DNA from: Candidatus Aminicenantota bacterium
GTDB taxonomy: Bacteria > Acidobacteriota > Aminicenantia > UBA2199
Direction of reading: 5' to 3'
Assembly (NCBI GenBank): GCA_030610885.1
Contig: JAUWQW010000021.1
Location: forward strand, 1 to 32,143
DNA length: 32,143 nucleotides
The position numbers were made by a program, and so were the translations under genes. This document shows positions 3,857 to 24,968 of the stretch, in pieces (positions within the stretch are counted from its first letter, which is position 1; each line of letters opens with the position of its first letter). Under the pieces are notes generated by a model. It saw only the letters and a program-made list of their open reading frames with translations. It ran no database searches and was not told the origin of the DNA.

Positions 3857-3864
3857 ATCACACC

Positions 3865-6800: not shown

Positions 6801-6933
6801 TTTCAACAATGTTAATCTCATCTTCTATATCTTTTTCATTTATTTTCTCAATAAGTTTTGATTTTATCTCATGGCTATGGGAAGCAATACATGCTGCACC
6901 TCCGCAAATCAAAACATCCAGTCTTTTTTTCAT
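3865..6933 (-). CDS. NuoF-GltD fusion: FMN/NAD(H) module joined to FAD/NADPH (NfnB/GltD-like) module
   Basis: This is a 1022-residue two-module redox protein. Residues 1-90 are a thioredoxin-like ferredoxin domain with C10, C15, C47 and C51 intact. Residues 90-510 are NuoF-like: FMN loop at about 162-177, NADH motif CNADEGDPGAFMDR at about 192-205, and [4Fe-4S] ligands C454/457/460/500. Residues 530-600 carry a GltD-type cysteine cluster (C530, C535, C547, C582, C586, C590, C594). FAD binding is shown by GAGPSG at 639-644 (roughly) and AGGDN at 905-909. NAD(P) binding is shown by GGGSTAMDCARTA at about 765-777 followed by VYRR, whose arginines suit NADPH. One chain therefore could connect NAD(H) and NADP(H), as separate subunits do in Nfn and Sporomusa Stn enzymes. 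A GGAGG site precedes the ATG. The domains are clear; the net reaction is inferred. Confidence 0.92.
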   Translation of the reverse strand: MKKRLDVLICGGAACIASHSHEIKSKLIEKINEKDIEDEINIVETGCMGPCELGPVMVVYPEGSFYVKIKEEDIDEIIESHFLKGRPVKRLLWKTPEARKIVEEKKQVPFFEKQKKIVLSNCGLIDPENIEEYIAKRGYEALGEMLTTKTSEQVIDIMVKSGLRGRGGAGFPTGLKWKFTRAAKGNEKYVICNADEGDPGAFMDRAILEGDPHSVLEGMAIAGYAIGANKGYVYVRAEYPLAIDRIKVAIKQARDMGVFGENIFETDFSFDVEIRMGAGAFVCGEETALIASIEGKRGQPRPKPPFPANKGLWQKPTCINNVETLSNIRHIYLNGPDWFNSIGTEKSKGTKVFALSGNVRNTGLVEVPMGITLGDLVYEIGGGIPNDKKFKAVQTGGPSGGCIPAKHLNASIDYESLKELGSIMGSGGLIVLDEDTCMVNISKFFLEFSLEESCGQCAPCRIGLKQMYDILEDITLGRGTMEDLDRLEKLALTVKTTSLCGLGQAAPNPVLSTLRYFRHEYIEHIKEKKCKAGVCAALFDAPCKNACPAHVDPSSYISYMSDGRFNKAYLCHMENNPFPIVCSRICPAFCEKKCSREKYDEAIAIREVKRLFADWAIENEMGFAPPLKPKKENVAIIGAGPSGLSCGFYLTRLGYKPVVFEALSEAGGMMKWGIPDYRLPKDKLKAEINVIERAGVEILLNSPVKSIDTLKNDFDAIFIATGAHNVAEMKIEGSDLNGVQYGIELLRKVNGGEQVSVGENVIVLGGGSTAMDCARTAKRLGAKEVRVVYRRTKAEMPAQIEELMEAEEEGIIIDYLISPIEVIGNGKVEGLKCIKTELGKFDSSGRRSPVPIEGTEFILKTDLIIPCLGQKMSKGLDFGEIVLNKWGFLDVKSETMQVTEHGIFAGGDNINPSTVIECVAHGRQAAISIDKYFGYDGKLFDKERKVVEVSYDEEKYLKTIQKKKSHFSNIEERIKSLCLEVNLGLTKEDAIEESRRCLHCDRGEPVITAKEETKSIKIEEML

Positions 6934-6962
6934 TAAAAGCCTCCTTAACTCTTAAATAAGGT

Positions 6963-7325
6963 TTATTCTTTTACTTCCAACACAAATTCAGAGACTGGAT
7001 TTCCATTGACAATGTGTTCAGATATAATTTTTCTTGCATTTTCAGCCGTTACATTACCATAAACTATATCTGGTTTCCCCTCTTCCTGAATGGTAACAAT
7101 CGGTTCATGTGAACTTAATCCTCTTTCACCCGATTGAGAAACAATAATATCACTTAAATCACGTTTTTCAATTTCATTAAGAAAAACTTTTAAGGTTTCT
7201 CGTGCACCTGCTGCGATTCCACTCGTACCCATTCCTACAATTACCTTAATCCTTGCTTTTCCATCGCGAAGATGCATATCTTTCTCTGCTTTTTCTCTTA
7301 TTTTCTTTAAATCCTCAAGTTTCAT
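6963..7325 (-). CDS. HndB-like thioredoxin-fold subunit lacking all cluster cysteines
   Basis: This 120-residue protein is related to the small [2Fe-2S] ferredoxin-like subunit (HndB type) found between NuoE- and NuoF-like genes in NADP-reducing hydrogenase and bifurcating enzyme operons. Recognisable family segments are VGMGTSGIAAGARE, SSHEPIVTIQ and EHIVNGNPV. In the family the loops carry cysteines (of the type TCGIAAGA and TGCxGLC). Here they read TSGIAAGA and SGERGLSS, and the whole protein contains no cysteine, so it cannot hold a Cys-ligated cluster. It probably acts as a structural subunit. A GGAGG site lies just before the ATG. It sits between the NuoE gene (30 bases upstream) and the NuoF-GltD fusion, exactly where HndB is expected. 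I am confident of the family and less so of the role. Confidence 0.85.
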   Translation of the reverse strand: MKLEDLKKIREKAEKDMHLRDGKARIKVIVGMGTSGIAAGARETLKVFLNEIEKRDLSDIIVSQSGERGLSSHEPIVTIQEEGKPDIVYGNVTAENARKIISEHIVNGNPVSEFVLEVKE

Positions 7326-7355
7326 TGTATTTTCCTCCTTTTATACTAATAAAAA

Positions 7356-7859
7356 TCAATTTTCTTGATTTTCCTGTTTAAATTGTTGTATTATTTGTAC
7401 TGCTTTTTGAGGGTTGAGTCTTCCATATACCTCATCATCAATTAACATAACAGGTGCCAACCCACATGCTCCAAAACACCTGGCAGTAGAAAGAGTAAAA
7501 AACCTGTCCTTAGTTGTTCCACCAACCTTCAATTCAAGTTCTTTTTGAAGAGCTTTAATAATTTCCTGAGCTCCCTTAACATGACAGGCAGTTCCAAGAC
7601 AAACATTGATTATATGATCACCAATTGGTTCAGTCCTGAAAAAATTATAAAAAGTAACAACACCATAAACCTCTGAATATGAAACATCCATTTCCCGTGC
7701 TATAAAATACTGAACTTCAACTGGTAAGTACCCAAAAATTTCTTGAGCTTTGTGAAGTACCTGTATAAGTGGTCCTGGAGTTTCCCGATTTTGCTCAATA
7801 AATTTCTTTAAACTTCTATAATACTCATTATCAGGATTATGAATATCAACTAATTCCAT
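7356..7859 (-). CDS. NuoE/HndA-like [2Fe-2S] subunit
   Basis: This is a 167-residue NuoE-family protein whose [2Fe-2S] ligands are C87, C92, C128 and C132 (motifs CLGTAC and CFGAC followed by GLAPVM). The N-terminal helices carry QVLHKAQEIFGYLPVEVQ and YGVVTFYNFF, which are typical of the family. It heads the first electron-transfer block: NuoE, cysteine-free HndB-like protein, NuoF-GltD fusion. It should therefore partner the NuoF half of the fusion. AGGAGG precedes the ATG at good distance. Having two NuoE genes, each upstream of its own NuoF, indicates two diaphorase heads rather than a recent duplication, since the copies differ widely. Confidence 0.93.
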   Translation of the reverse strand: MELVDIHNPDNEYYRSLKKFIEQNRETPGPLIQVLHKAQEIFGYLPVEVQYFIAREMDVSYSEVYGVVTFYNFFRTEPIGDHIINVCLGTACHVKGAQEIIKALQKELELKVGGTTKDRFFTLSTARCFGACGLAPVMLIDDEVYGRLNPQKAVQIIQQFKQENQEN

Positions 7860-7926
7860 AAATTCCTCCTACATTGTTTTATTTTTATTTATTTAGAAAG
7901 AATAATCTATAAAACATTAATTGGTA

Positions 7927-8256
7927 TTATTTTTTTAATAGTGAATAAATTTTACCTGACACTTCAAATGCATTATCCTGAGTCCCCAAAATATAAATTC
8001 CCTCATCCTTTGCTCTTATTTTTACCTGATCATCAGGAGAAATTCCATTGGGAAGGATTATTCCTGCAATCTTTTTTAATTGAGCAACTGCAATTACATT
8101 CATATGTCTCTGAATTGTTATCCACACACTGCCTTCTTTACAATTAGCCATAACATCAGAAAGAAGATCTGAAGTATAACCCTCATAAACAGAACTGTTT
8201 TGGCCCTCAGCAAATACTTTGAGCCCCAATTCAAAAATGATCTTTTTAATTTCCAT
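7927..8256 (-). CDS. DRTGG-domain protein
   Basis: This 109-residue protein resembles the DRTGG domain family found as stand-alone proteins in hydrogenase/NuoEF operons of anaerobes and fused to phosphotransacetylases and CBS proteins. The ordered hydrophobic strands (VWITIQRHMNVIAVAQ, AGIILPNG, GIYILGTQDNAFEV) fit an alpha/beta domain. No catalytic residues are evident. A regulatory or ligand-sensing role is inferred only from its company. It is the first gene after a strong promoter (8289-8317), so it leads the redox operon. Its ribosome site is weak (AGGGT about 11 bases upstream). A related DRTGG protein is encoded at 15717-16067 on the other side of the mobile island. Confidence 0.72.
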   Translation of the reverse strand: MEIKKIIFELGLKVFAEGQNSSVYEGYTSDLLSDVMANCKEGSVWITIQRHMNVIAVAQLKKIAGIILPNGISPDDQVKIRAKDEGIYILGTQDNAFEVSGKIYSLLKK

Positions 8257-8288
8257 TGATTATAGACCCTATTTTAATATTAATTGAC

Positions 8289-8317
8289 TTTATAACAATA
8301 TAATCCATAAAAGTCAA
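8289..8317 (-). promoter_or_regulatory. Promoter of the DRTGG/redox operon, with overlapping dyad
   Basis: Read on the minus strand, -35 TTGACT (8317-8312) and -10 TATAAA (8294-8289) are 17 bp apart, with an extended -10 TG one base before the -10. The predicted start is near 8282, leaving a leader of about 26 bases before the ATG at 8256. The same stretch forms an imperfect inverted repeat: TTGACTTTAT at 8284-8293 faces ATAAAAGTCAA at 8307-8317. It brackets the core promoter and could be an operator. Confidence 0.7.
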
Positions 8318-8360
8318 GATAAAATTATAAATCATTTTTGATTTTTTCAGAATTAAATTA

Positions 8361-8912
8361 TTAAGTATAATTTTGTAAATCTGAAATCCCTTTGTCTATA
8401 AATTCTTTTAAAAATCTCATTACATCCGGATGAGTTATATGTAAGTCCCCTATCTGCTCTTTTATTTCTTTTGTAGATATATTAAAACATCCATTATCAT
8501 TCTCATAAGTAATATCTATATCACAAGGATCATTACCAACTATTGAGGTCAGAATCGTATCCTTAACTTCTCCTATAGGAGGAACATCTATGTTACTTTT
8601 TTTGAAAATAGCCGTTACTAATGTACCCTTCCCAACACGACTTTCCATTTTAAAACTTCCCTCACAATGAATAGCTGTTTCTTTTAAAAGAGGAATCCCA
8701 AGCCCTACTTTTTTACCGCTCTTTGTAGTATAAAAAGGATCCTGAACATTTTTTATAGTTTCAGCATCCATTCCTTTACCATCATCATTAATCTCAATTG
8801 AAATCAAATCCTCTTTATCTGATTCTTTTAATTTTATTTTAATATTTTTTGAATTCGCTGAAATTGAATTCTGGACAATATCAATTATATGATAACAGAG
8901 TTCTTCCATCAT
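8361..8912 (-). CDS. GHKL (histidine-kinase-like) ATPase, stand-alone
   Basis: This 183-residue protein has a HATPase_c domain at about 1-115. The N box is DIVQNSISAN (residues 11-20), the G1 box NDDGKGMD (42-49) and the G2 box VGLGIPLLKE (69-78). There is no dimerisation/phosphoacceptor helix and no sensor domain, so it is not a conventional sensor kinase. Related stand-alone ATPases accompany DRTGG and PHP proteins beside hydrogenase-type operons. Residues 120-183 form an extra C-terminal piece I do not recognise. The start lies 4 bases after the PHP stop, with GAGGT inside the PHP gene. An anti-sigma or protein-kinase role is possible but nothing here proves it. Confidence 0.82.
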   Translation of the reverse strand: MMEELCYHIIDIVQNSISANSKNIKIKLKESDKEDLISIEINDDGKGMDAETIKNVQDPFYTTKSGKKVGLGIPLLKETAIHCEGSFKMESRVGKGTLVTAIFKKSNIDVPPIGEVKDTILTSIVGNDPCDIDITYENDNGCFNISTKEIKEQIGDLHITHPDVMRFLKEFIDKGISDLQNYT

Positions 8913-8916
8913 ATTG

Positions 8917-9645
8917 CTATTTTACCTCAAACCTACCTTCAAGACCTGCTTTATATATTTCCTCAATAACAGGTGTTTTAACATCATAAATAGTATAAAC
9001 TCTACCTATATCTCTAATATAGTGAGCATCTGAATTTGAAATTAGACTGAAATTATCAAGCTCAGGATATTTAGCCAATACTTTTTCTCTATCTGCATTA
9101 TAAGATATCTCAAATATACAATTTTTTAATTCTTCAACAATAAAACCCAGATTTCGCATCAGACCAAATTGCTCACTTTCGATATGAGCAGGCACAACAT
9201 AGCCATTATATGACCTTACCCTATCAACAAGTTCAGAGATCGACAAATCAATAGAATTGAATAACAACTTTTCCTCAACTCTGACAATATTATCATCTTC
9301 ATCAACAACAACCTGATCGCCAAAATAATCAGGTCTATTTTTTATACTTGGCAGATAATTATAAATATCCGAATAAAATATCTCAGCCTCTTTCATTTTT
9401 TCAAAATAACACAGAATATGTACATCTTCTAGAGTTTGGGCTTCCATCCCATATATAACCTTAACACCAAATTTTTCACCAATTGAAGAAGCATAAAAAC
9501 AATTTTCCATACTATTGTGATCAGTAACAGAAATAACATCCAGATTCAACTCTTTAGCCCTATTTACAATTGCAGAGGGAGACATTTCAAGTGCCCCGCA
9601 TGGAGAAAGCGTAGAATGAATATGAAGATCAGCAGAAATTTTCAT
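8917..9645 (-). CDS. PHP-domain metal-dependent phosphoesterase
   Basis: This 242-residue PHP-family protein shows the metal-binding set in order: H8xH10 in ADLHIHSTLSPCG, D42/H43 in VTDHNSMEN, E68 in YGMEAQ, H76 in DVHILCYF, a histidine in PAHIE, and a C-terminal SDAH. All ligands appear present, so catalysis on a phosphoester or nucleotide is likely, though the substrate is unknown. It is the first gene of the PHP-ATPase pair that precedes the redox operon. Stand-alone PHP proteins of this type recur next to NuoEF/hydrogenase clusters. The predicted -10 box lies so close that the mRNA should start at the ATG. Confidence 0.88.
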   Translation of the reverse strand: MKISADLHIHSTLSPCGALEMSPSAIVNRAKELNLDVISVTDHNSMENCFYASSIGEKFGVKVIYGMEAQTLEDVHILCYFEKMKEAEIFYSDIYNYLPSIKNRPDYFGDQVVVDEDDNIVRVEEKLLFNSIDLSISELVDRVRSYNGYVVPAHIESEQFGLMRNLGFIVEELKNCIFEISYNADREKVLAKYPELDNFSLISNSDAHYIRDIGRVYTIYDVKTPVIEEIYKAGLEGRFEVK

Positions 9646-9875: not shown

Positions 9876-11468
9876 ATGGAAAATGAAATAAAAGCAGATT
9901 ATAGTAAGCGTTTTTTACTTCCTCCGGCAATTGAAGATTGGGTGCCAGAAGATCATCCTGTCCGTTTTATCAGAGAATTTGTAGAGAGTCTTGATTTTTC
10001 AAAGTTAAACTTTAAAAGAAGAATTAAGAAGAAAGGTCGTCCCAATTATTCAAATGAGTTATTATTAAAGATCTGGTTATATGGCTACTATGAACTGATA
10101 TACAGTAGTAGAAAGCTAGAGAAAGCTTGTTTAAATCAAATGCCAATGATATGGCTAACTGGAATGAATTGTCCTGATCATAATACCATATGGAGATTTT
10201 TTAGAAGAAACAGGAAAGCTTTAAAAGATATATTTAAGCAAACAGTAAAAATTGCAGTAAAATCTGATATGGTAGGTTTTGCAGTTCAAGCAGTTGACGG
10301 CACTAAAATCAAAGCAGATAGCTCTAAATATCGTTCTATTCATAAGGATGATCTAAAGGAGTTATTGTCTAAGCTTGATGAATCAATAGAAGAAGTATTG
10401 TTAAGTATTGATGGAATAGAAAATAATGAGCGATATCAACCAGGTTATCATTTACCTAAACGCCTTCAGGATAAAGACAATTTAAAAAGAATGATAAAAA
10501 AAGGAATTGAAGAATTATCCAATGAGGAAAAGATATCTTTAAGAGACACAGTAAAAAAGAGTATTAATTATATGGAAGAAAAAAATGTTAATCACCTTAG
10601 TATAACAGATAAGGAAGCGCGATTAATGAAAAATCAATCCACTAAAGAATATAGTTATAATGCTCAGGCTGTTGTAGATGAGAAGAATCAGATTATAGTT
10701 GGCTCAATCTTAAATAATAGAGAAACAGATTACCATAATTTAACAGAGCCAATAGATGATGCAGTTAAAAATACAAAGAGGCCATCAGATGAAACCTTGG
10801 CTGATAGTGGATATTTTTCAGGTGAAGAGCTTTCTCAAGCAAAAAATAAGGGTCATTCAGTTATTGTTAATATACCTTCTGGAGTAGGTAAGTCAAACTC
10901 AAATAAGGATGCAATAGTAAATAAAAGAGATTTTAAATATGATAAAGATTTAGATTGTTATCAATGCCCTAAAGGGAAAAATTTAACTTTTGATAGAATA
11001 AAAAGTAATAAGAATAGGAGATATTCTGTTCGAGTATATCGATGCAAGGATTTTAGAGATTGTCAGTATCACAAAAAGTGTAGTAAGGATAAGAGAGGTA
11101 GGACTTTAGAGCGAAGTCCTTATGATGGGCATATTGAGAATCAGATAAAAAAGCAAGAGAATGAAGTTAAGCGGTTACTATTATCTAAGAGAAAAAAAAT
11201 CGTTGAGCCAGTTTTTGGTTGGATAAAGTTTAATAATAAGTTTTCAATGTGGACATATAGAGGATTGGAATCGGTAGAAGCCCAATGGAATCTATTATGT
11301 ACAACAATAAATCTTAAAAAGTTGTATAAAAGTCGGTTTCTTAAAAAAGTCTATGCAATTTCACAAGAGTTTTCGTTAAGAAGTGGACAAAAAAAGCAAA
11401 ATTTGTTTTATTTTTATTGTTTTTTGCTTGGATTGAAAAAAATTACAGAAAAACCTCGATATTGTTAG
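9876..11468 (+). CDS. IS1182-family DDE transposase
   Basis: This intact 530-residue transposase has an N-terminal DUF772-type helical domain (about 10-125, with DWVPEDHPVRFIREFV) and an RNase H-like catalytic domain. Candidate DDE residues are D141 in AVDGTKIKADSSK, D310 in LADSGYFSGEEL and E444 in KKIVEPVFGWIK. Between D310 and E444 lies a cysteine-rich, probably zinc-binding insert (C361, C364, C390, C396, C402), which is usual in this family. There is no frameshift or internal stop. It is the only gene of the element. The gene has no recognisable ribosome site, in line with the predicted leaderless transcript. Confidence 0.93.
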   Translation: MENEIKADYSKRFLLPPAIEDWVPEDHPVRFIREFVESLDFSKLNFKRRIKKKGRPNYSNELLLKIWLYGYYELIYSSRKLEKACLNQMPMIWLTGMNCPDHNTIWRFFRRNRKALKDIFKQTVKIAVKSDMVGFAVQAVDGTKIKADSSKYRSIHKDDLKELLSKLDESIEEVLLSIDGIENNERYQPGYHLPKRLQDKDNLKRMIKKGIEELSNEEKISLRDTVKKSINYMEEKNVNHLSITDKEARLMKNQSTKEYSYNAQAVVDEKNQIIVGSILNNRETDYHNLTEPIDDAVKNTKRPSDETLADSGYFSGEELSQAKNKGHSVIVNIPSGVGKSNSNKDAIVNKRDFKYDKDLDCYQCPKGKNLTFDRIKSNKNRRYSVRVYRCKDFRDCQYHKKCSKDKRGRTLERSPYDGHIENQIKKQENEVKRLLLSKRKKIVEPVFGWIKFNNKFSMWTYRGLESVEAQWNLLCTTINLKKLYKSRFLKKVYAISQEFSLRSGQKKQNLFYFYCFLLGLKKITEKPRYC

Positions 11469-11767: not shown

Positions 11768-11864
11768 AATTAATATTTTGGACAACCAAATTGACCGATT
11801 AGTATATGAATTGTATGGGTTAACAGAGGAGAAGATTAAGATTGTTGAGGGGGAAAATGAATGA
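11751..11864 (+). pseudogene. 37-codon remnant resembling the C-terminal tail of restriction/methylase proteins
   Basis: This short frame encodes LDNQIDRLVYELYGLTEEKI followed by KIVEGENE and a stop. The pattern IDxLVYELYGLTEEEIxIVE is a common last segment of adenine-specific DNA methylases and type IIG restriction enzymes, which I recall from those families. The frame starts inside the RAYT remnant and ends overlapping the ATG of the TIR gene. No upstream methylase domain is present. It is most likely debris from a restriction-modification gene, though a translated leader peptide cannot be excluded. Confidence 0.5.
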
Positions 11865-13914
11865 AATTGAATTAAGTGACAAAATTCTGAAAGATTTATA
11901 TGATAAGGATAAATTAAATGGAGCTGAAATTTATAACATTGATGAGATTGCAGCAAAATATGGAATAATAGATTTACATAGAGTCCAAAGAATTGTAAAA
12001 AATTGGGATTCAGATGGATTTGTTAAAGAATATTGTGATAAGGATGGAAATGATGCAGAAATAACTTCAAAGGGTATCCAATATGTTGAGCAAAAAGCCC
12101 TCGAAAAGAACAATTCTGATATAATTCAAGAAGAGATGAATCTTGAAAATAAGAATTATAAATACGATGTAGTTTTATCTCTTGCGGGAGAGCAAAGAGA
12201 ATATGTTGAACAAGTTGCAAAATATTTAAAAGAAAATGGAATTAAATATTTTTACGACAAAGAGAATAAAGCTGAACAATGGGGAAAGAATTTAACAGAG
12301 TATTTTGGTGATCTTTATAGTAATAAAGCTGAATTTTGTATCATGTTCATTTCCAAGGAATACAAAGAAAGAATGTGGCCAACTCATGAAAGAAGAAGTG
12401 CACTTGATCGAGCAATAAGAAGTAAAAAAGAGTACATTTTACCAGTAAAATTTGATGATACTAAAATTGATGGGCTTTATACTTCGACTGGATATTTAGA
12501 TGCAAAAAAAACAACACCGAAAGAAGTAGTAGAGATATTTCTTGAAAAAATTGGTCGCCCGTTAAAACGAACTCATAAACATAAAGAGTTTTCTAATATA
12601 CCAGTCATTAAAAAATTTGAAATCATTCCAAGTAAAGTTAAAAAAGGAGAAAGAGCTATATATTACTGGGAAGTTGAAAATGTGGATCAAAATATTATAA
12701 TTGAAAATCATCATAGTAAAGGCAGTGGGGAGCATTTTTTTGGGAAAAATTATAAAGGTTACTATACAATTGATAATGTTCAGGATTCAATTACATATAT
12801 ACTAAGCATTGAGAATAATCTTGGTAAAGACTCAAGGACAATTGAATTAGAACTAGTAGACGATTCTGAAGTATTACTTGACAATAAAAAACTCAATAGT
12901 TTAATAAGTGTAATATCAAATACTATTAAAGATTTTGAAAATTTCACATTCAATACAAAATATGATTTTAATTCAAACTCCACAAAAGAAATAATTCGTA
13001 AAATTTCTGGTAAAGATGCTGTTAAAATTTTTATAAAATTTGTTCAAAAAATTTTAGAAAATAGTATAAGTAAGCAAAGTCCATTAAAAAAGGATAGTCT
13101 CAATAATATATTTACCGATGGAATTTTAGAGAAGGTTAATGATCTCAATTTTTTACTTGAAACAATAATAGAAACAATTGAATTAATTAAAAGTTCGGAT
13201 TTATACAAAGAACAAAATACTTGTCTTATATATGAATTTAAAAAAATTATTAGATATATCAATGAAAATCTTATAAAACATAAAGAAAAATTTATAAAGA
13301 TTGAGAAAGAATTACTTCCGAATGCTATTGAATTATGCAAGAAGCAAAGTGTAGATACTACTGAGTTATCAGAATTAAGAGGCGAATTTAATGAAATCAA
13401 TAGTTATTTTGAAAAGATAAATCAATATTATAGATTTGCAAGTAATGAAAATGGGGTCTTTATCTCTGTTCAACCCCAAAAGGATAAAACTGAGTTGGTT
13501 GAAAATACTGTTATTGATCGCGCAACAAAAATCCTTGCGAAGGACAATATGGAAAAACTAAGAATATTTGCCGAACACATGACTGAAAAGATGTCACTAG
13601 AAACTGCAACTAAAGGCCTCTTACAAACTGATAACATAGAGGATTATATAAAAAAAGTGACTGGAAAAGAAGTTGAGATAATTGAGCACAAGGAATTGGA
13701 TAAAATCAAAAACGTTATTAATCAAAGAGGTTATGTCATTATCAGCTATGCTACTTGGGAACCAGCTAAACGATATGATGGTTTAGGAGAAGGAATAATA
13801 CATTGGGTTATGACAAAAGAAAAAAAAGTTCTTTTAAATAGAGAAGGACTTGATATTTTGAATACATATCATGCTGGATTTAAGGAAGAAATATCGAATC
13901 ATAAACTATCATAA
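11857..13914 (+). CDS. TIR-domain protein with N-terminal winged helix and Ig-like domain; candidate anti-phage effector
   Basis: The ATG at 11857 gives 685 residues; GAGGGGG lies just before it. The frame can open at a TTG at 11842, but that codon has no ribosome site of its own. Residues 1-80 look like a winged helix (KILKDLYDKD, IDEIAAKYGI, VQRIVKNWDSDGF). A TIR domain (about 101-245) opens with YDVVLSLAGEQREYVEQV. It has W174 and E178 in MWPTHERRSA, the expected position of the catalytic glutamate of NAD-cleaving TIRs. Residues 250-335 show an Ig-like beta-sandwich pattern (PSKVKKGE, YYWEVENV, ITYILSIENNLG). Residues 350-560 are helical and unrecognised, and the last 120 residues (with GYVIISYATWEPAKRYDG) match nothing I know. 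It sits among mobile remnants. The defence role is inferred; the TIR call is firm. Confidence 0.82.
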   Translation: MNEIELSDKILKDLYDKDKLNGAEIYNIDEIAAKYGIIDLHRVQRIVKNWDSDGFVKEYCDKDGNDAEITSKGIQYVEQKALEKNNSDIIQEEMNLENKNYKYDVVLSLAGEQREYVEQVAKYLKENGIKYFYDKENKAEQWGKNLTEYFGDLYSNKAEFCIMFISKEYKERMWPTHERRSALDRAIRSKKEYILPVKFDDTKIDGLYTSTGYLDAKKTTPKEVVEIFLEKIGRPLKRTHKHKEFSNIPVIKKFEIIPSKVKKGERAIYYWEVENVDQNIIIENHHSKGSGEHFFGKNYKGYYTIDNVQDSITYILSIENNLGKDSRTIELELVDDSEVLLDNKKLNSLISVISNTIKDFENFTFNTKYDFNSNSTKEIIRKISGKDAVKIFIKFVQKILENSISKQSPLKKDSLNNIFTDGILEKVNDLNFLLETIIETIELIKSSDLYKEQNTCLIYEFKKIIRYINENLIKHKEKFIKIEKELLPNAIELCKKQSVDTTELSELRGEFNEINSYFEKINQYYRFASNENGVFISVQPQKDKTELVENTVIDRATKILAKDNMEKLRIFAEHMTEKMSLETATKGLLQTDNIEDYIKKVTGKEVEIIEHKELDKIKNVINQRGYVIISYATWEPAKRYDGLGEGIIHWVMTKEKKVLLNREGLDILNTYHAGFKEEISNHKLS

Positions 13915-15665: not shown

Positions 15666-15694
15666 TTGACATTAAAAAAAATCTATAATAGAAT
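15666..15694 (+). promoter_or_regulatory. Promoter of the DRTGG-CBS/ATPase pair
   Basis: -35 TTGACA (15666-15671) and -10 TAGAAT (15689-15694) are 17 bp apart. The predicted start near 15701 leaves about 16 bases, with GAGG five bases before the ATG at 15717. A nearby TATAAT at 15684 is only 12 bp from the -35 and fits less well. Confidence 0.6.
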
Positions 15695-15716
15695 TCGAAA
15701 AACAAGTGAGGTAAGT

Positions 15717-16067
15717 ATGAAAGTTAGAGAATTGGTAAAGATACTTGATGGTGAAGTAATCTCAGGAGAGGATAAATTAGATGAAGATGTGAAATCTATA
15801 GGTGCGGGTGATATGATGAGCGAGATCCTCGCTTTTGCAAAACCAGGAATGATGATTCTATCAGCACAGGCATCACCACAATCTGTAAGAACAGGCATTG
15901 TAACAGAGATCCTTGGATTGGTAATTATATCGGGAAAGAATATCCCACAACAAACAATTGAAATGGCTAAAAAGAACAACTTTTTGCTTATAAGAACTAA
16001 ATATTATATGTTCTCTTCATGCGGAAGACTTTTTAAAGCTGGTTTTAAAGGAATTGATGAAAAATAA
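15717..16067 (+). CDS. DRTGG-domain protein
   Basis: This 116-residue protein begins MKVRELVKILDGEVISGED, an N-terminus typical of stand-alone DRTGG proteins near hydrogenase-type clusters. It contains the RTGIVTEILGLVIISG segment that corresponds to the domain's signature. I chose the ATG at 15717 over a TTG at 15666, because the latter falls on the -35 box of the promoter and has no ribosome site. Its stop overlaps the next gene by 11 bases, so the two are translationally coupled. The role is unknown; ligand sensing is inferred. It is a distant relative of the protein at 7927-8256. Confidence 0.75.
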   Translation: MKVRELVKILDGEVISGEDKLDEDVKSIGAGDMMSEILAFAKPGMMILSAQASPQSVRTGIVTEILGLVIISGKNIPQQTIEMAKKNNFLLIRTKYYMFSSCGRLFKAGFKGIDEK

Positions 16068-16986
16068 AAAAGGCCTAAAAAAATACGCTGACATATTTGC
16101 CCATATAAAAGCATCTGATATAATGACCAAAAATGTTACAACTTTAGCACCTGAAAATAAAATGTCTCAGGCAAAAGAGATGATGAGAATAAAAAAGATC
16201 TCAGGAATTCCAATTGTTGATAAAGAAAATAAACTTATAGGAATAATAAGTTTAGAAGATATTATTAAAGCGCTTGAGTTCAACAAAATAAATGAACCTA
16301 TTCAAAACATGATGACAACCAATGTAAGAACAGTAAATATGAATGATAATATAGCTAATATTGTTGAGAAATTCGATATTTTAAAACTCAGACGTTTTCC
16401 TGTAATTGATAAAAATAACAAAGTTCAGGGCATCATTTCAAGAGTAGATATATTACATGGAATACTGGAAAAATTTAATTTAATATATTCTCATGACAAA
16501 AAAAGGAACTCAACCTTAAGCCAGGAAATTTCACTTGTTACAGGTGAAAAATTACTGATTAAAGAAGCAGAGTTCCACTTTGCTATTGACAATGCAGATG
16601 TTATTGCTGCTGGAACAGGAGCTGCCCTTTTACAACAATTTTTAAAGAAAAAAGAGATAGATAATGAAATAATCAGACGAATAGGGGTTGCAACTTATGA
16701 AGCAGAAACAAATGTTGTTATTCATAGTAAAAGCACAGGGGATGTTTTTTGTTATATTAAAGAAGATAGAATCATTATACGTATAACTGACTCAGGCATT
16801 GGAATTGAAGATCTTGAACAAGCTATGGAAGAAGGATTCACAACTGCTTCTGATTATGTAAAAGAGTTTGGTTTCGGAGCTGGGATGGGTCTGCAAAATA
16901 TGAAAAGATTTACTGATAAACTTGTAATTATATCTGAAAAGAAAAAGGGAACTCAAGTAGAAATGGTTTTTTTTACAGATAAATAG
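16057..16986 (+). CDS. CBS-pair protein with C-terminal GHKL/RsbW-like ATPase domain
   Basis: This 309-residue protein starts at the ATG at 16057 with AAAGGAA before it. Two CBS motifs (about 20-75 and 85-137; ASDIMTKNVTTL, GIPIVDKENKLIGIISLEDI and a second copy) form a Bateman module that usually binds adenine nucleotides. Residues 170-309 are an ATPase of the anti-sigma/GHKL type: N box VATYEAETNVVIH (201-213), G1 TDSGIGI (244-250) and G2 FGFGAGMGLQNMKR (271-284). An energy-sensing regulator is a reasonable inference. Such proteins are commonly encoded with DRTGG, PHP and stand-alone ATPases beside NuoEF/hydrogenase operons, which here lie 6 kb away across the island. It converges on gatD, with 17 bases between the stops. 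Confidence 0.87.
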   Translation: MKNKKGLKKYADIFAHIKASDIMTKNVTTLAPENKMSQAKEMMRIKKISGIPIVDKENKLIGIISLEDIIKALEFNKINEPIQNMMTTNVRTVNMNDNIANIVEKFDILKLRRFPVIDKNNKVQGIISRVDILHGILEKFNLIYSHDKKRNSTLSQEISLVTGEKLLIKEAEFHFAIDNADVIAAGTGAALLQQFLKKKEIDNEIIRRIGVATYEAETNVVIHSKSTGDVFCYIKEDRIIIRITDSGIGIEDLEQAMEEGFTTASDYVKEFGFGAGMGLQNMKRFTDKLVIISEKKKGTQVEMVFFTDK

Positions 16987-17003: not shown

Positions 17004-18386
17004 TTATTTATGAAATTTCTTTAAAAAATCATCAATTCCAGGTACTCCACCCTGAAATATCAGGTATCCATTGTAAGCTTCTCTCTCTGTAATTTCTTTA
17101 TTTATCGGATTAAGCATGATTTGCCTTACTTTATCCAAATCATCAGTTTGACCAAGTGCCCAACCTAGTTTTACATAAGCTACTTCAGGAAGCATATTCT
17201 CAGCAGGAATTATACCTTTATTCATTAAATCTCTTCCAGTATCGTAAACAAACATATGAACATAACCCCACAGAGTTTGAACAGTCATATATATAGCAAC
17301 TCCTCTCTTTATTGCCCTCTCAATTGCAGGGTAAAGAGGTTTGTTTACATGTCCTAAACCAGTTCCTGCAATAACAATCCCCTTATAACCACTTTCTACA
17401 AGAGAATCTATTATATCAGGCTGCATATTAGGATAGTAATATATTAATGTCACCTTCTCCTCAAAATATGGATAAATTTCAACATTACGATCATTCCTTC
17501 TATGGTTATAATCTGTCCATATATGTGTTATTTTCTCTTTATCAACCATTGCTATTGGTGTATCACCAATTGTTCGGAAAGTAGAGCGATATGATGAATG
17601 CATTTTCCTTACCCTTGTGCCTGTATGCAAAAGAGCATACTCATCAGATGTAGGACCAAACATACATACCATTACCTCTGCAATATCAGATTGACTGGCT
17701 GCTTTTGTGGCATGTATAAGATTGAGAGCTGCATCAGATGAAGGCCTATCAGAAGAACGCTGAGACCCAACCAGAATTATTGGTACAGGTGGATTTTGCA
17801 CCATAAAAGAGAGTGCAGATGCAGTATGATGAAGAGTATCTGTTCCATGACCAATAACAATACCATCAATCCCTTTTTTGATCTCTTCTCCAATTGCAAT
17901 TGCAAGTGTCTTATACTCTTCTGGCCCCATATTCTCACTAAACACGGCAAATAGTTTCTCAGTGGTTAAATTGCATATATCTGCAAGCTCAGGTACAGCT
18001 CCATAAAGTTCCCCAGGAGAAAAAGCTGGAATAACAGCACCTGTTCTGTAATCAAGCCTTGAAGCAATGGTCCCACCTGTTCCAAAGAGTTTTACATTTG
18101 GTTTGTCCTCTGAAAAAGGGAATTCCTTTTCAGGTATTTTATAATGCGCCTCTTTATAACCAAGTTCTTTCATATTTGTAACTGTATTAACATCAATCCC
18201 AATATTGTAACCAGTTATCAGCTTTAAAACAATGTGAAGATCATCATCATTTTCAGACCTTGGAAGAATTATGCCTTTAAACTCTCCCCTTGTAGTTTCA
18301 ATCAATGTTTCACTCCAGACCCTTATGTTAAATTTTTTTAAAACCAATAAAGCTTTACCTTTATATCCCTTAAAAAGATCACTCAT
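17004..18386 (-). CDS. gatD: Glu-tRNA(Gln) amidotransferase subunit D (archaeal-type, asparaginase-like)
   Basis: This 460-residue ammonia-releasing subunit hydrolyses glutamine/asparagine and feeds ammonia to GatE for conversion of Glu-tRNA(Gln) to Gln-tRNA(Gln). Residues 1-90 are the small N-terminal domain (MSDLFKGYKGKALLVLKKF). The asparaginase domain follows with TGGTIAS (T106), GHGTDTLHHTAS (T182, D183) and RVRKMHSS (K261), so the Thr/Thr/Asp/Lys catalytic set is complete. I placed the start at 18386, where ATGAGTGA overlaps the gatE stop. A longer opening to 18503 lies inside gatE. The N-terminal domain and the pairing with gatE rule out a plain L-asparaginase. This enzyme is classically archaeal, so its presence here is unusual. 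Confidence 0.93.
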   Translation of the reverse strand: MSDLFKGYKGKALLVLKKFNIRVWSETLIETTRGEFKGIILPRSENDDDLHIVLKLITGYNIGIDVNTVTNMKELGYKEAHYKIPEKEFPFSEDKPNVKLFGTGGTIASRLDYRTGAVIPAFSPGELYGAVPELADICNLTTEKLFAVFSENMGPEEYKTLAIAIGEEIKKGIDGIVIGHGTDTLHHTASALSFMVQNPPVPIILVGSQRSSDRPSSDAALNLIHATKAASQSDIAEVMVCMFGPTSDEYALLHTGTRVRKMHSSYRSTFRTIGDTPIAMVDKEKITHIWTDYNHRRNDRNVEIYPYFEEKVTLIYYYPNMQPDIIDSLVESGYKGIVIAGTGLGHVNKPLYPAIERAIKRGVAIYMTVQTLWGYVHMFVYDTGRDLMNKGIIPAENMLPEVAYVKLGWALGQTDDLDKVRQIMLNPINKEITEREAYNGYLIFQGGVPGIDDFLKKFHK

Positions 18387-20361
18387 TTTCTTCACCTGCA
18401 ACCATTTTCCCAAGTTTTTCAAGCTCCATATTACCTTTTGCCATTGGATACAATTCCCCCATAATCCACAGACACTCAGCTCGTGGATTATACCTTGAAC
18501 CACTTATTTCTTTAAATCTCTTTTTTAGATCTGACAAAAAAAACAGAATTTTCTTTTCACTCTTTTTTTCAAACTTTATGATCTTTAAAACAGAGTCAAA
18601 ATCCATGTTTGAATTTTTATATATAACTGGTAGCATCTCTTTTATAATCCCCTTTTTTAATTTATTTTTAATCACATAGGCGAAAAGATCATAAATTTTA
18701 GAATAATTAAATAATGATGAAGAATTTGTTTTACCCTCTATACTTTTAAGTTTATGCCCAATAAGAGTTCCAACAAAAACAGGATCCACTTCAAAACTCT
18801 CTATAATATTTTTTATTAATTTAAATAAATTTAGTTTTAAAATATAGGTATATGTATCAGAAGGAATTTTCCACTTCTCAAGCTGATTGATTTTTGAAGC
18901 AATACTTGATGAAAGCAATTTTCTGGCTTCCTGAATCTGGCTCTCTTCTATAGGAATTGGGGCAGAATCAGTGTCAGGATACATACGATTAGGCCCTGGC
19001 AGAACTCTTTCGAAAATATTGGTGCCATCTCTAAATGACTTTCTGGTCTCATTTGGAACACCCTTGAAGGCAAGTAGGCACCTCTCCTCAATAGTTTCAA
19101 GAGCAGTTTTAATATCTGGATCTGAGCCACAAATAATCACCTGAGCATCATTTTCTTTTATGTTTAGAATCTTTTTTACATAGAATAGTTCATCTTCACT
19201 TATAATTGGCTCTAATTCCTCAGAGTGTATCATATTTGGTTTTTCAAGACATGCTATAACCTTAAGACGATCTATCAATTCATTTGCAAACATCTTGTCA
19301 GGTTGTGTAAAAAATGAAAGAATCCCTCTAAAATCAGGTAGATTCACACACACAATTCTATTCTTATTTACACCTAAATTTTTAAAGGGAAAATTGTTTG
19401 ATTTAAAAAGATTTGCTGAAATATCTCTGCTACTTATTCTCCATTTTGAAGGATCAGTAATACGCTTATTTAACATTTTTTTTATTTCAAGAAGAGCTTT
19501 CTGACGGAAGGCTTCATTATGAGTTAATTCTGGTATCCACTTGATATGTGAAACACCCTTGATTTCAACTCTGGTTCCACCATTTATACTTACATTAACA
19601 TCCTCTCTTGCAGCACCTATTCCTGTTCTAACTCTTCCTGTACTTCGAGTTAAAAAACGAAGGTAATGCCCGGCTTCTTCTGCTTCTGCAGGGGTTTTCA
19701 TATCAGGGTATGTTACCATTTCTACTAAAGGCATGCCAAGCCGATCAGTTATATATACTCTCTCATGACCAATATCTGAAACCTCTCTACAGGAGTCTTC
19801 CTCAACACTTACCTGAATTATACGTATCTTTTTCTTTTTTAATTGGATCTCACCCTCGATTCCAACAAGAGCAGTCCTCTGAAAACCTGTAGGAATACTG
19901 CCATCAAGGTACTGCTTACGAGTAATATGTAATTCACCTACAATATTTGTATTTAAAAGTAATGAAATTTCCAGGACAATGTCAAGAGCCTCCCTGTTTA
20001 AAATAAATGGGGGGGTGTCATCAATTTCATAAGTACAGGCTGTTTCATTCTTTATGTGATAAATAATATTCTTTTTTGTTTTAAACTCCATCAATGCAGT
20101 TCCATCATACTCACCCATTTCACTCAGAGTGGGTCTCATATGTCTGATAATTTCAGCATCATATTCATCCTTCTCTTGATATAAACCCGCAGGACAACGA
20201 CAGAATAGTTTTTTTTCAGTTTTTAACTGTTGATGAATTTCAAGGCCGCATTTAAATCCCATTTCATAATAATCCTGAGGTTTTGTCTTTTTCCTTGGCA
20301 AATACCCTACAATCTTCTTTGTCTTTTCATAATTTTTTAAAGCGTCAAACTTCATGTTCAT
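18379..20361 (-). CDS. gatE: Glu-tRNA(Gln) amidotransferase subunit E (archaeal-type, GatB-related)
   Basis: This 660-residue tRNA-binding/kinase-transamidase subunit opens its core with FKCGLEIHQQLKTEKKLFCRCP, the GatE form of the GatB/E signature. Other family segments are LMEFKTKKNIIYHIKNETAC, the VSVEEDSCRE phrase, GRVRTGIGAAREDVNVSI, EIKGVSHIKWIP and the RMYPDTDSAPIPI block. The middle (about 290-410) would hold the GAD-like insertion that distinguishes GatE from GatB. The C-terminus is the helical YqeY-like tail. The length fits GatE and exceeds GatB. It has its own strong promoter (20389-20417) and an AAAGGAA site. It is upstream of gatD and coupled to it by an 8-base overlap. Confidence 0.93.
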   Translation of the reverse strand: MNMKFDALKNYEKTKKIVGYLPRKKTKPQDYYEMGFKCGLEIHQQLKTEKKLFCRCPAGLYQEKDEYDAEIIRHMRPTLSEMGEYDGTALMEFKTKKNIIYHIKNETACTYEIDDTPPFILNREALDIVLEISLLLNTNIVGELHITRKQYLDGSIPTGFQRTALVGIEGEIQLKKKKIRIIQVSVEEDSCREVSDIGHERVYITDRLGMPLVEMVTYPDMKTPAEAEEAGHYLRFLTRSTGRVRTGIGAAREDVNVSINGGTRVEIKGVSHIKWIPELTHNEAFRQKALLEIKKMLNKRITDPSKWRISSRDISANLFKSNNFPFKNLGVNKNRIVCVNLPDFRGILSFFTQPDKMFANELIDRLKVIACLEKPNMIHSEELEPIISEDELFYVKKILNIKENDAQVIICGSDPDIKTALETIEERCLLAFKGVPNETRKSFRDGTNIFERVLPGPNRMYPDTDSAPIPIEESQIQEARKLLSSSIASKINQLEKWKIPSDTYTYILKLNLFKLIKNIIESFEVDPVFVGTLIGHKLKSIEGKTNSSSLFNYSKIYDLFAYVIKNKLKKGIIKEMLPVIYKNSNMDFDSVLKIIKFEKKSEKKILFFLSDLKKRFKEISGSRYNPRAECLWIMGELYPMAKGNMELEKLGKMVAGEENE

Positions 20362-20388: not shown

Positions 20389-20417
20389 AGTATATTTTTT
20401 CATACTATTGTTGTCAA
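20389..20417 (-). promoter_or_regulatory. Promoter of gatE-gatD
   Basis: On the minus strand, -35 TTGACA (20417-20412) and -10 TATACT (20394-20389) are 17 bp apart. The predicted start is near 20382, leaving a 21-base leader with AAAGGAA. It is divergent from the promoter of the peptide gene. Confidence 0.75.
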
Positions 20418-20789: not shown

Positions 20790-21857
20790 ATGGATTTTTG
20801 CAGCTTTACCTTTATTGTAACTGAAGATTGCAATTTCAACTGTACATACTGCTATAAAAAAAAAAGTAAAACATATGTCACTGACTCCATAATTGAGAAA
20901 TCTATAGAATTTTTCTTTCCATATTTAAGTAAAGAGTGCTACATAAATTTTTATGGTGGTGAACCTTTACTTGCTTTTGATAAAATTAAAAAAATCATTT
21001 ATATTCTAGAATCTAAAAATAAAAAACTTAAAAAAAACTTCCATTACTCAATAACCAGTAATGGAAGTTTAATTGATAACAAGATACTAAAATTTCTAAA
21101 CCAATATAAATTTTCATTGATGATAAGCTTTGATGGATATGCTCAAGAGATATCAAGAAAAAAAGGTAGCTTCACACAAACAATTTCGATTATTAAAAAA
21201 ATTCTGAAATACCCTGACATAAAGCTTGAGATAAATAGTGTATTCACACAAAAAACAATTGGAACTATTTCAAAATCCATTTCCTTTATCCTTGGTCTTG
21301 GAATTCCTAAAATCAATCTTTCTATCAACACAACAGAAGCCTGGAATAAAACATCAATTCACAAATTAAAAGAAGAATTAACAAATCTAAGCGATTATTT
21401 ATACTTACATTATAAAAAAACGGGCTCTATTCCTCTTAATAATTTCAAAGATGATTTTGAAAAAGGTATTTTCCAATGTACAGCAGGTAAAGATCGTATG
21501 GCATTAACTCCACATGGAAATATCTGGGGATGTTATCTTTTCTCAGATTATTTTCAAGAAAAAGAAAAAACCTTAGAATACCTCAAATATTCTTTTGGTA
21601 ATCTGGATTTTTTCATAAAAAATCATAAAATAATTTATACGAAAATCCTCTCAAATTATTCAAAACTCAGGATGGACTATTATTGGACTTCAGATAAATT
21701 CTGCATGTTATGTAATAATATCGAAGATTGCAGGATATGCCCTATGGACAGTGCTTTTTCCGGATCTATTATTGGAAAAGTAGAAAAATGGGTATGTCAA
21801 ATCAATAAGATCTTTTTAGAGGGGAAAAAACTGTTCTGGCAAAGAATAAAAGATTAA
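20790..21857 (+). CDS. Radical SAM/SPASM-domain protein, peptide- or protein-modifying type
   Basis: This 355-residue enzyme has the [4Fe-4S]/SAM motif CNFNCTYC (C14, C18, C21) and NFYGGEPLLAF (GGE at 56-58). The C-terminal SPASM region has C230-x12-G243-x4-C248, then C305-x2-C308-x5-C314-x2-C317, and C336. That is seven cysteines, enough for two auxiliary clusters. The SPASM subset includes sulfatase-maturing enzymes and RiPP maturases acting on peptides. No sulfatase is nearby; the small gene at 20506 is the obvious candidate substrate. The ATG at 20790 is the only start before the SAM motif, since TAA directly precedes it. No good ribosome site is seen, so translation may depend on read-through from the peptide gene. 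The fold is certain; the substrate is inferred. Confidence 0.9.
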   Translation: MDFCSFTFIVTEDCNFNCTYCYKKKSKTYVTDSIIEKSIEFFFPYLSKECYINFYGGEPLLAFDKIKKIIYILESKNKKLKKNFHYSITSNGSLIDNKILKFLNQYKFSLMISFDGYAQEISRKKGSFTQTISIIKKILKYPDIKLEINSVFTQKTIGTISKSISFILGLGIPKINLSINTTEAWNKTSIHKLKEELTNLSDYLYLHYKKTGSIPLNNFKDDFEKGIFQCTAGKDRMALTPHGNIWGCYLFSDYFQEKEKTLEYLKYSFGNLDFFIKNHKIIYTKILSNYSKLRMDYYWTSDKFCMLCNNIEDCRICPMDSAFSGSIIGKVEKWVCQINKIFLEGKKLFWQRIKD

Positions 21858-21875: not shown

Positions 21876-24800
21876 TCACATAGAAGTAGTTCTTTTAAGA
21901 GTTATCAGTTGTTTTTTAGCATCCTTAAGTTCATTGTGCCAAAAATCTGCTTCTTTCCACAACAAGATAAATTTCTCAAAGTTCTCTATTGCTTTACCTT
22001 TCCAGCCCTTTTTCTGATATATCTTTGCTATCCAATAAAAACTTTTAGAATAAATATCACCAAATCTTAATCTTCCATAAGTTAAATTTACAATCTTTTT
22101 ACATTCCTGGAGAGCCTCTTTAATATTTCCAGTTTTATATAATATTGATGCCAGAGTAGATATATAAAAAGCATGCTCATCTTCCATATCACTTTGATAA
22201 GGCAATAAATCTATGGCTCTTTTAATATAAAGAATTGATTTGAGAACATTATCTTCTTTGAATGCAATTAATCCCATCAAATGGTGATAACATCTAAAAC
22301 CCCTCTTGTCTCCTGTTTTTGCAACCATTTTTTTTAATTCTTCTGTACATTTCTTTGCTTCATCAATTGTATCTACCTCAATCAGGTTAAGGCCCAGAAG
22401 ATGATAAGCCTCTACCTGATTTTCTTTAATATTATATTCGAGGGCTTTTTCAAGAACTTGTTTTGATAAAGTAATTGATTCTAAAAAAAGTCTGTATTGA
22501 AATTTCAAATAAGCCAAAAATAATTTAAAATCTAACTCATAATATTTCAAACCGGATTTTTCAGAAAGTGCAATCCCCTTGATAATATTCTTTTTACTCT
22601 TTTCATATTGTCCATAAATTAAACATAAATGTGCTATCCAGAAACGCCCTGACAACTCAGAATCCGAATCTCTTTTCTCAATTTCAATAAGTTGCTCATA
22701 AATTTTCTGAGCTTTTGTTAAATCCCCTTTTAAATGGTAAACATTACCAATCAATTCAAAATTTTTATAATTATTAGCTTCTAAAGAAATTACATTTTGC
22801 AGTTCCATTAAAGACAGATCATACCTGTGTTGACACGTATAAATATCACTTAAATATCTATGATATCTTACTCTATTATAAAATAAATGCTTATTTTTCT
22901 TAAGAAAATCTATATCTTTATCATACCAACCTTTTTTCATAAATAGATAAGCAAGGTTCCATAAAGCAATCCTTGATTTGTCATTTATCTTTAAAACTCT
23001 TTCAAATTTCCTGATTGCAAGATCCCATTCTTCAACATTTCTATACGTTGAGCCTAACAAAACATTCCCCTTTTCATCCTCTGGATAGAGTTTTAATAAA
23101 TCCAGATAAGGTTTTATCTTTTCTCTATAAGATTTTCCAATCTGATTATAATAAGAACCTTTTATCAGATAACGTTCTCTATCGGATACATGGTCAGACA
23201 AATCCATTGCTCTTTTTATATATTGTAAAGCAAAATCTGATTGTCTTAAATATAAATAATTTACTGATATTTTGTTATAAGCAATAGCAAATTCAGGATC
23301 AATAGCAACTGCCTTTTTTAGGCTATTAATGCTCTCGTTGAACTTTTGCTCTATATAGCAGCTTTCACCCTCAACATAGTATTTTAACGCTTCAGGCGAG
23401 TTAGTTGTAATCTTACCAATCTCTCTATCAATATCATTAAGAATCTCTTTTGGAGTAAGACTTAAGCTGGATTTTATTTTTAGAGTCAATCGGTCAATAA
23501 CAGAAAAAAGGCTTGCTTCTCCCTTTCCATCAACATATACTGTGTCTAATAATTCTCCCTTTTTCGGTTCAAGAATCTTGATGCTTACACGAAAAATATC
23601 ACCTGCTTTAGCATAACTTCCCAGAATAACATACCGGACATTTGCCTTAGAAACCACCTTTTCAATAATGTCAGGCCCATATCTTGTATGTTTTAAATGA
23701 TTTGCTTCTTTTAAAATTTGATAGAGTTGATCTTCTGGCAATACTCGTATATATTTGGATTGAGCAAGATCTGTAACCAGCAGATCAGAGAAAGCCTGAC
23801 TCCATTGATCCAGTGTATTTTCACCTGTGTTATTTTCAAAATGCATTACTGCTACTGAAGGCTTTAACTCAATGTTAGAAATCTTTTTATTAAGTAATCC
23901 CCCTTTTTTTATAAAATAAAAAGAAATCGTGAGTAAAATAATCAAACCAACAAAAAGGATTAATTTGAACCCTTTATTATTTATTTTAAAAATATCTATT
24001 GGTTTTGTGGTAAATTTACCTTCTGTTAAATCATCAAGAATTTCTTCTGCATTCATGTAACGTCTTTCTAGCTTCTTCTCTAAACATTTAAGAATAATCT
24101 TTCTAATAAATAGAGGAATTTCCATTTCCATATCTTTTGGAAATTTAGGTATTTCACTGATATGCTTCTTAAGGTATCCAAAGTCTGTTTCCGATTCAAA
24201 GGGGAGACTGCCTGCTACCATCTCATACATCATTATTCCAAAAGAGTAAATATCTGAGCGTCCATCAATCTTATCACCTCTCCATTGCTCGGGTGAAATA
24301 TATTGAGGAGTTCCAACAAGAGTTCCAGTAAAACTTGGATCACCTTCTCTTAAGGATTTAGCCAGACCAAAATCTGTAATATAAACTCTTCCATTTTCAT
24401 CTATCATTATATTTGACGGCTTTAAATCCCGATGAGCAACGCCATTCCTGTGAGCTGCACCAAGCCCCTCTAGAATTTGTGTGGATATGCTAAGTATTGA
24501 ATCAATACTTAAAGGAGAGGGAGATTCCTGAATTATATCTTTCAGACTTTCCCCTTCAATATATTGCATTGAAATGAATTTAATATCATCTTTCTCACCA
24601 AAATCATGAATTCTAAGCACATTCTCATGTGATATCTCTCTTGCAAGTAGAATCTCATTTTTAAACCTTTCAATCATTTTGGGATCTGCAAGAAATTCAG
24701 GACGTATCATTTTTAAGGCAACAACTATGTCCAATTCTCTATCCACTGCTTTATATACTCTTCCCATTCCACCCTGTCCAATCTCTTCTATAATTTTGTA

Positions 24801-24968
24801 TCTATCTGCAAATAGATCATCTGGATTAAAATTAAACTCAGATTTAATATTTGGAATTTTTGAACTCCCCAAAGAAGATGAATCAGACCTTTTCAATAAA
24901 TCTGAACCACACTTACTGCAAAAACAGCTTTCATCGATATTCTCAAATCCACACTTCCTACAAATCAT
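21876..24968 (-). CDS. Membrane Ser/Thr protein kinase with zinc ribbon, TolB-like N-terminal domain and TPR repeats
   Basis: This 1030-residue protein has a zinc ribbon at 1-21 (C3xxC6 and C17xxC20). The Hanks-type kinase (about 58-315) has the GQGGMGRVY loop, K87 in VALK, HRDLKPSN with D181, the DFG motif at D199 and an APE-like SPEQW. One transmembrane segment lies at about 335-352 (LILFVGLIILLTISFYF). Next comes a domain like the TolB N-terminal or adenylate-cyclase-associated FlgO/TolB region (PSVAVMHFENNTGENTLDQW). At least eight TPR-like repeats run to the C-terminus. The kinase is cytoplasmic and the rest extracytoplasmic. The catalytic residues are intact. Kinase-TolB-TPR proteins of this design are frequent in Acidobacteriota and Aminicenantes. 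Its target is unknown. It converges with the radical SAM gene, with an 18-base gap. Confidence 0.9.
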   Translation of the reverse strand: MICRKCGFENIDESCFCSKCGSDLLKRSDSSSLGSSKIPNIKSEFNFNPDDLFADRYKIIEEIGQGGMGRVYKAVDRELDIVVALKMIRPEFLADPKMIERFKNEILLAREISHENVLRIHDFGEKDDIKFISMQYIEGESLKDIIQESPSPLSIDSILSISTQILEGLGAAHRNGVAHRDLKPSNIMIDENGRVYITDFGLAKSLREGDPSFTGTLVGTPQYISPEQWRGDKIDGRSDIYSFGIMMYEMVAGSLPFESETDFGYLKKHISEIPKFPKDMEMEIPLFIRKIILKCLEKKLERRYMNAEEILDDLTEGKFTTKPIDIFKINNKGFKLILFVGLIILLTISFYFIKKGGLLNKKISNIELKPSVAVMHFENNTGENTLDQWSQAFSDLLVTDLAQSKYIRVLPEDQLYQILKEANHLKHTRYGPDIIEKVVSKANVRYVILGSYAKAGDIFRVSIKILEPKKGELLDTVYVDGKGEASLFSVIDRLTLKIKSSLSLTPKEILNDIDREIGKITTNSPEALKYYVEGESCYIEQKFNESINSLKKAVAIDPEFAIAYNKISVNYLYLRQSDFALQYIKRAMDLSDHVSDRERYLIKGSYYNQIGKSYREKIKPYLDLLKLYPEDEKGNVLLGSTYRNVEEWDLAIRKFERVLKINDKSRIALWNLAYLFMKKGWYDKDIDFLKKNKHLFYNRVRYHRYLSDIYTCQHRYDLSLMELQNVISLEANNYKNFELIGNVYHLKGDLTKAQKIYEQLIEIEKRDSDSELSGRFWIAHLCLIYGQYEKSKKNIIKGIALSEKSGLKYYELDFKLFLAYLKFQYRLFLESITLSKQVLEKALEYNIKENQVEAYHLLGLNLIEVDTIDEAKKCTEELKKMVAKTGDKRGFRCYHHLMGLIAFKEDNVLKSILYIKRAIDLLPYQSDMEDEHAFYISTLASILYKTGNIKEALQECKKIVNLTYGRLRFGDIYSKSFYWIAKIYQKKGWKGKAIENFEKFILLWKEADFWHNELKDAKKQLITLKRTTSM

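Follow-up and report, generated by a model that had tools for sequence, protein, structure and literature searches.

The window, that is, the whole stretch of 32,143 nucleotides analysed here from an Aminicenantes (Acidobacteriota) contig, carries the genes gatE and gatD, which judging from their sequences probably encode an archaeal-type Glu-tRNA(Gln) amidotransferase that has spread horizontally and acts alongside GlnRS to provide a second or salvage route. In reviews of 2021 and 2022, GatDE has been described as occurring only in archaea (PMC8007984, PMC9499178). GlnRS is found in no archaeon according to the 2022 review, and its absence has been explained by GatDE and archaeal tRNA(Gln) having evolved together (PMC9499178, PMC8007984). 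The archaea-only statement is contradicted, and the co-evolution account weakened, by a large clade of bacterial GatDE accompanied by GlnRS and bacterial tRNA(Gln). No report of bacterial GatDE was found in the open-access papers on GatDE that were consulted; isolated database annotations of bacterial GatD or GatE probably exist, since the NCBI models would give them these names. The first-pass annotation had counted many bacterial relatives with GatDE as evidence against its observation. Such relatives do exist and the genome is not unique, but the contradiction of the published picture stands.

The gene order is gatE first and gatD second (Table 1). The start of gatD is the ATG at 18386 (MSDLFKG, in a register that agrees with the relatives) and not the upstream GTG at 18503, and the resulting overlap would couple the translation of the two genes. 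In a promoter scan the total of promoter-like sites was close to the chance expectation, so weight is given only to the well-placed site before gatE.

Table 1. Features of the gatE–gatD locus in the window.
Feature	Position	Strand	Description
gatE	18379..20361	-	660 aa, Glu-tRNA(Gln) amidotransferase subunit E; GatB/GatE catalytic domain, insertion region, helical tail
gatD	17004..18386	-	460 aa, asparaginase-like glutaminase subunit; Pfam GatD_N, Asparaginase, Asparaginase_C
gatE/gatD overlap ATGAGTGA	18379..18386	-	8 nt, from sequence
Sigma-70-type promoter TTGACA-17-TATACT	20389..20417	-	11/12 consensus, ~28 nt upstream of the gatE ATG
AAAGGAA	20369..20375	-	Putative ribosome-binding site of gatE, from sequence

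Both proteins exceed the cut-offs of the NCBIfam equivalog models for their families: GatE scores 412.8 bits with TIGR00134 (cut-off 319.55) and 495.3 with NF003107 (cut-off 456), and GatD scores 509.3 bits with TIGR02153 (cut-off 324) and 513.8 with NF003217 (cut-off 310). With the GatB and asparaginase II models the scores fall far under the cut-offs. The asparaginase-type active site of GatD (T, T-D, K; motifs GGT/HGTD/K) is intact and its N-terminal domain is present, as are the core motifs GLEIHQQL, RPTLSE, and VEED of GatE. The description of gatDE as full-length, catalytically intact, promoter-driven, and coupled is thus borne out by the cut-offs, the motifs, the promoter, and the overlap. 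Sequence matches in the PDB were 2d6f_C (1.7e-85) and 1zq1_C (2.1e-82) for GatE and 1zq1_A (7.7e-115) for GatD, and the top Foldseek matches of the AlphaFold model of GatE were 1zq1_C and 2d6f_D, with E about 1e-29. The model was built from 32 sequences and has a mean pLDDT of 77.7, with several weak core loops; residues 53–117 fall below 50, probably as a result of the shallow alignment. It shows a helical tail at residues 487–655 and has weak Foldseek matches to AspRS. In the window GatE, Pfam detected neither a GAD nor a Yqey domain; among 32 GatE proteins, Yqey was found in 14 and GAD in eight (E up to 1). The catalytic cores of both subunits are strongly conserved, and the low dN/dS values among congeners (0.16 for gatE, 0.06–0.11 for gatD) indicate purifying selection on both genes.

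The archaeal enzymes of Pyrococcus abyssi (1zq1) and Methanothermobacter thermautotrophicus (2d6f) have the same two subunits, core domains, and active-site motifs, with identities of 45–49% for GatD (measured with the GatD of a congener, G002) and 31–33% for GatE (Foldseek alignment). Unlike them, the pair described here resides in a bacterial host with GlnRS and a U1-A72 rather than an A1-U72 tRNA(Gln), belongs to a separate clade, and has a diverged GatE tail. With bacterial GatCAB it shares the GatB/GatE catalytic domain and the presumed chemistry, GatB being a paralogue of GatE, but its glutaminase is the asparaginase-like GatD and not GatA.

The Gln system of the host is not archaeal. 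GatB is absent from the genome (threshold E 1e-60), in which the GatE profile also hits only GatE itself, while AsnRS and GlnRS are present and tRNA(Gln) has the bacterial U1-A72 pair. The GlnRS is a true GlnRS split between two contig ends, which share a 119-nt overlap (95% identity), and from these sequences it is most likely broken in the assembly only. GatDE as the sole Gln route was therefore rejected, the apparent break being a contig end. Of 60 relatives, the host included, 51 had AsnRS above the cut-off, and a replacement of missing AsnRS by GatDE was rejected because both the genome and the class sample contain this enzyme. Both tRNA(Gln) isoacceptors, UUG and CUG, have U1-A72 and G73; the UUG isoacceptor has the same identity in 16 GatDE genomes and in eight GatCAB genomes, and the host tRNA(Asn) also has U1-A72. 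The first-pass annotation had expected the host tRNA(Gln) to be co-adapted to GatDE, which is not seen at the 1-72 pair, where the host resembles its GatCAB relatives. Neither A1-U72 nor the lack of GlnRS, the two archaeal-host traits, applies to this host; both are features of the archaeal substrate and hosts and not of the GatDE protein family. The check for gatCAB and glnS that the first-pass annotation had suggested gave a host with GlnRS and without GatB. Its premise that bacteria use GatCAB or GlnRS overlooks the chief point, that GlnRS and GatDE occur together here.

The host has GluRS1 and a second GluRS that falls in a GluRS2-like clade and carries an HVGN motif, a type of motif given for GluRS2 (PMC3927822). 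This second enzyme (contig C24, 28915-29535) is kept despite GlnRS, whereas GluRS1 is the sole GluRS in most of the other GatDE genomes examined. In the same paper, a discriminating GluRS is inferred where GlnRS is present and GatCAB absent, with GatDE unmentioned (PMC3927822), and surveys of this kind are affected by bacterial GatDE.

The co-occurrence of GatDE with GlnRS extends well beyond the host. In a sample of 247 Acidobacteriota genomes, GatE was above the cut-off in 30, and GlnRS was present in 29 of these 30 versus 123 of the 217 others (Fisher p 4e-6, a statistic that ignores kinship). Stronger evidence comes from the families f4, f7, and f20, in each of which one genus has GatDE and GlnRS without GatB and sister genera have GatB without GlnRS. 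GatDE genomes from other scans had GlnRS above the cut-off in 34 of 36 and 36 of 40 cases (70/76 together), the six without it all being MAGs, and GatE and GlnRS were both present in 10 of 10 genomes of the host family (f1) that are at least 90% complete. GatB was found in only six of 38 GatDE-positive genomes checked.

In the host, GlnRS forms Gln-tRNA(Gln) directly. Judging from the co-occurrence, GatDE most likely works next to it on the Glu-tRNA(Gln) that GluRS produces, which it would convert to the right product, and so provides a second or salvage route. The conserved motifs and fold suggest that GatE would activate glutamate on Glu-tRNA(Gln) with ATP and that GatD would release ammonia from Gln or Asn, both as in archaea; in the host, the GluRS2-like enzyme could supply the Glu-tRNA(Gln). 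GatDE would then occupy the place of the GatCAB of relatives, which is absent from most GatDE genomes. Several observations stand against this salvage role. GlnRS alone is enough in many bacteria, including some Acidobacteriota that have GlnRS without either GatB or GatE, so salvage may not be needed. The archaeal enzyme recognises the A1-U72 pair of tRNA(Gln) (PMC9499178), which is missing in the host, and the GatE of the window has no GAD or Yqey domain that Pfam detects. In the Acidobacteriota sample, 13 GatDE genomes also have a GatB-type match, and salvage there would be superfluous.

The main rival to a salvage role is that bacterial GatDE has kept its amidotransferase chemistry and been repurposed to another substrate or to a role outside translation, most concretely to the conversion of Asp-tRNA(Asn) for asparagine formation where asparagine synthetase is missing. 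Such a role has been proposed for GatCAB in bacteria that have AsnRS and GlnRS and lack Asn synthetase (PMC4206432). Deinococcus and Bdellovibrio, with GlnRS, AsnRS, and GatCAB (PMC4206432), likewise keep an amidotransferase beside the direct synthetases, but the amidotransferase here is GatDE and its role in asparagine synthesis is only hypothetical. The redundancy of GatDE on paper alongside GlnRS, the additional GatB of some genomes, the missing archaeal A1-U72 pair, the diverged GatE tail, and the U1-A72 pair of the host tRNA(Asn) all fit repurposing. We nevertheless consider it unlikely, as the catalytic cores show strong conservation, the confinement to hosts with GlnRS suggests tRNA(Gln) as the substrate, and tRNA(Asn) is stated never to be a substrate of GatDE (PMC7541841). 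In the neighbourhoods of gatDE in relatives, no conserved partner gene was found except gatE and gatD themselves, so none points to another pathway, and no special tRNA was found beside gatDE.

Less likely still is an archaeal-like arrangement in which GluRS and GatDE are the main source of Gln-tRNA(Gln) and GlnRS is auxiliary. The host does have the full pathway (GluRS1, the GluRS2-like enzyme, and GatDE), but almost every GatDE host retains GlnRS, most of the genomes checked lack the second GluRS, and tRNA(Gln) still has U1-A72 and G73. Alongside the salvage role that we favour, we tentatively put forward a wider proposal, somewhat more doubtful than that role: bacterial GatDE may form a distinct, horizontally mobile clade, kept only with GlnRS, whose tRNA recognition or substrate has changed (to tRNA(Gln) with U1-A72, or to tRNA(Asn)). 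The outcome would be a built-in repair of Glu-tRNA(Gln) or else a novel amide pathway that depends on tRNA.

GatE occurs in nearly every genome of the host family and also in families f4, f7, and f9 of the same class; other members of the class have GatB in its place. A scan of GTDB contigs gave at least 578 GatDE loci, of which the best 80 are all bacterial and belong to Bacteroidales, Zixibacteria, Aminicenantes, Cloacimonadota, Calditrichota, Fibrobacterota, and the clostridial isolate Oceanirhabdus, where GatDE lies on the complete chromosome. A distribution wider than usually stated, one of the two alternatives offered at first, is thereby supported. With isolates such as Oceanirhabdus and Perlabentimonas bearing GatDE, its role in bacteria is testable. 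A search of plasmids for bacterial gatE returned none, the matches being GatB-like apart from one haloarchaeal copy. An unannotated archaeal gatE with an apparent frameshift near 4960 lies at 3989-5857 of the Natrinema plasmid CP031304.

The phylogeny that had been suggested as a check placed 53 bacterial GatE sequences opposite three archaeal ones and 45 bacterial GatD sequences opposite two, each with full support, which argues for a single bacterial clade of both subunits relative to the few archaeal sequences included. These are all from Euryarchaeota, and neither the donor nor the direction of transfer can be named from them. Within the clade, the branching does not follow phyla (Clostridia, for example, lie beside Fibrobacterota), and Aminicenantia appear in at least three places, namely f1, f7 with Bacteroidales, and f4 and f9 with the acidobacterial family f23. 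This mixing indicates repeated transfer within bacteria and supports the other alternative, acquisition by transfer. Monophyly of f1 is weakly rejected for GatE (AU p 0.03) and not rejected for GatD (p 0.25). On the available sequences, a single ancient transfer may have brought archaeal-type GatDE into bacteria, and later transfers would have spread it among those that use GlnRS. The long stem between the bacterial and archaeal clades would also suit an ancestral GatDE, present in LUCA and retained in bacteria with no transfer, but we regard this as improbable given the patchy distribution (two of 293 genomes in a sample of Clostridia, where GatDE is rare) and a branching order that cuts across phyla.

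GatDE in this host is neither contamination nor unique: although the genome is a MAG (2.5 Mb in 128 contigs, 93% complete, 1.5% contaminated), an archaeal contaminant or chimeric contig as the source of gatDE, which the first-pass annotation had named as its possible undoing, is rejected with near certainty, since relatives throughout the family carry the same gatDE on many contigs, GatDE sits on the complete bacterial chromosomes NZ_CP115913 and CP070756, the best scan matches are all bacterial, the bacterial sequences in the trees form a clade separate from the archaeal one, and the contig itself encodes BamA and OmpH-, FabA-, and LpxA-type genes.

Other features of the window and the genome were also observed. 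A Radical SAM protein (20790-21857) is encoded divergently from gatE, its nearest model being the PapB ranthipeptide maturase, below the cut-off, and a 1030-aa fusion of a Ser/Thr kinase with a TPR-like region is found at 21876-24968. NuoE/NuoF-like, glutamate-synthase-like, HATPase, DRTGG, PHP, and CBS-HATPase genes at 1803-9645 and 15666-16986 form a set that resembles the clusters of regulated electron-bifurcating hydrogenases. Immediately after an IS1182 transposase (9876-11468) lies a TIR-domain protein of 690 aa (11842-13914), possibly a defence gene. In the host tmRNA (L034, 1141-1486, minus strand), which Rfam confirms, the tag given by ARAGORN is oddly cysteine-rich; an alternative frame gives ADDFALAA and then a stop codon, an ending of the common kind, so the cysteine-rich tag is a frame miscall by ARAGORN.
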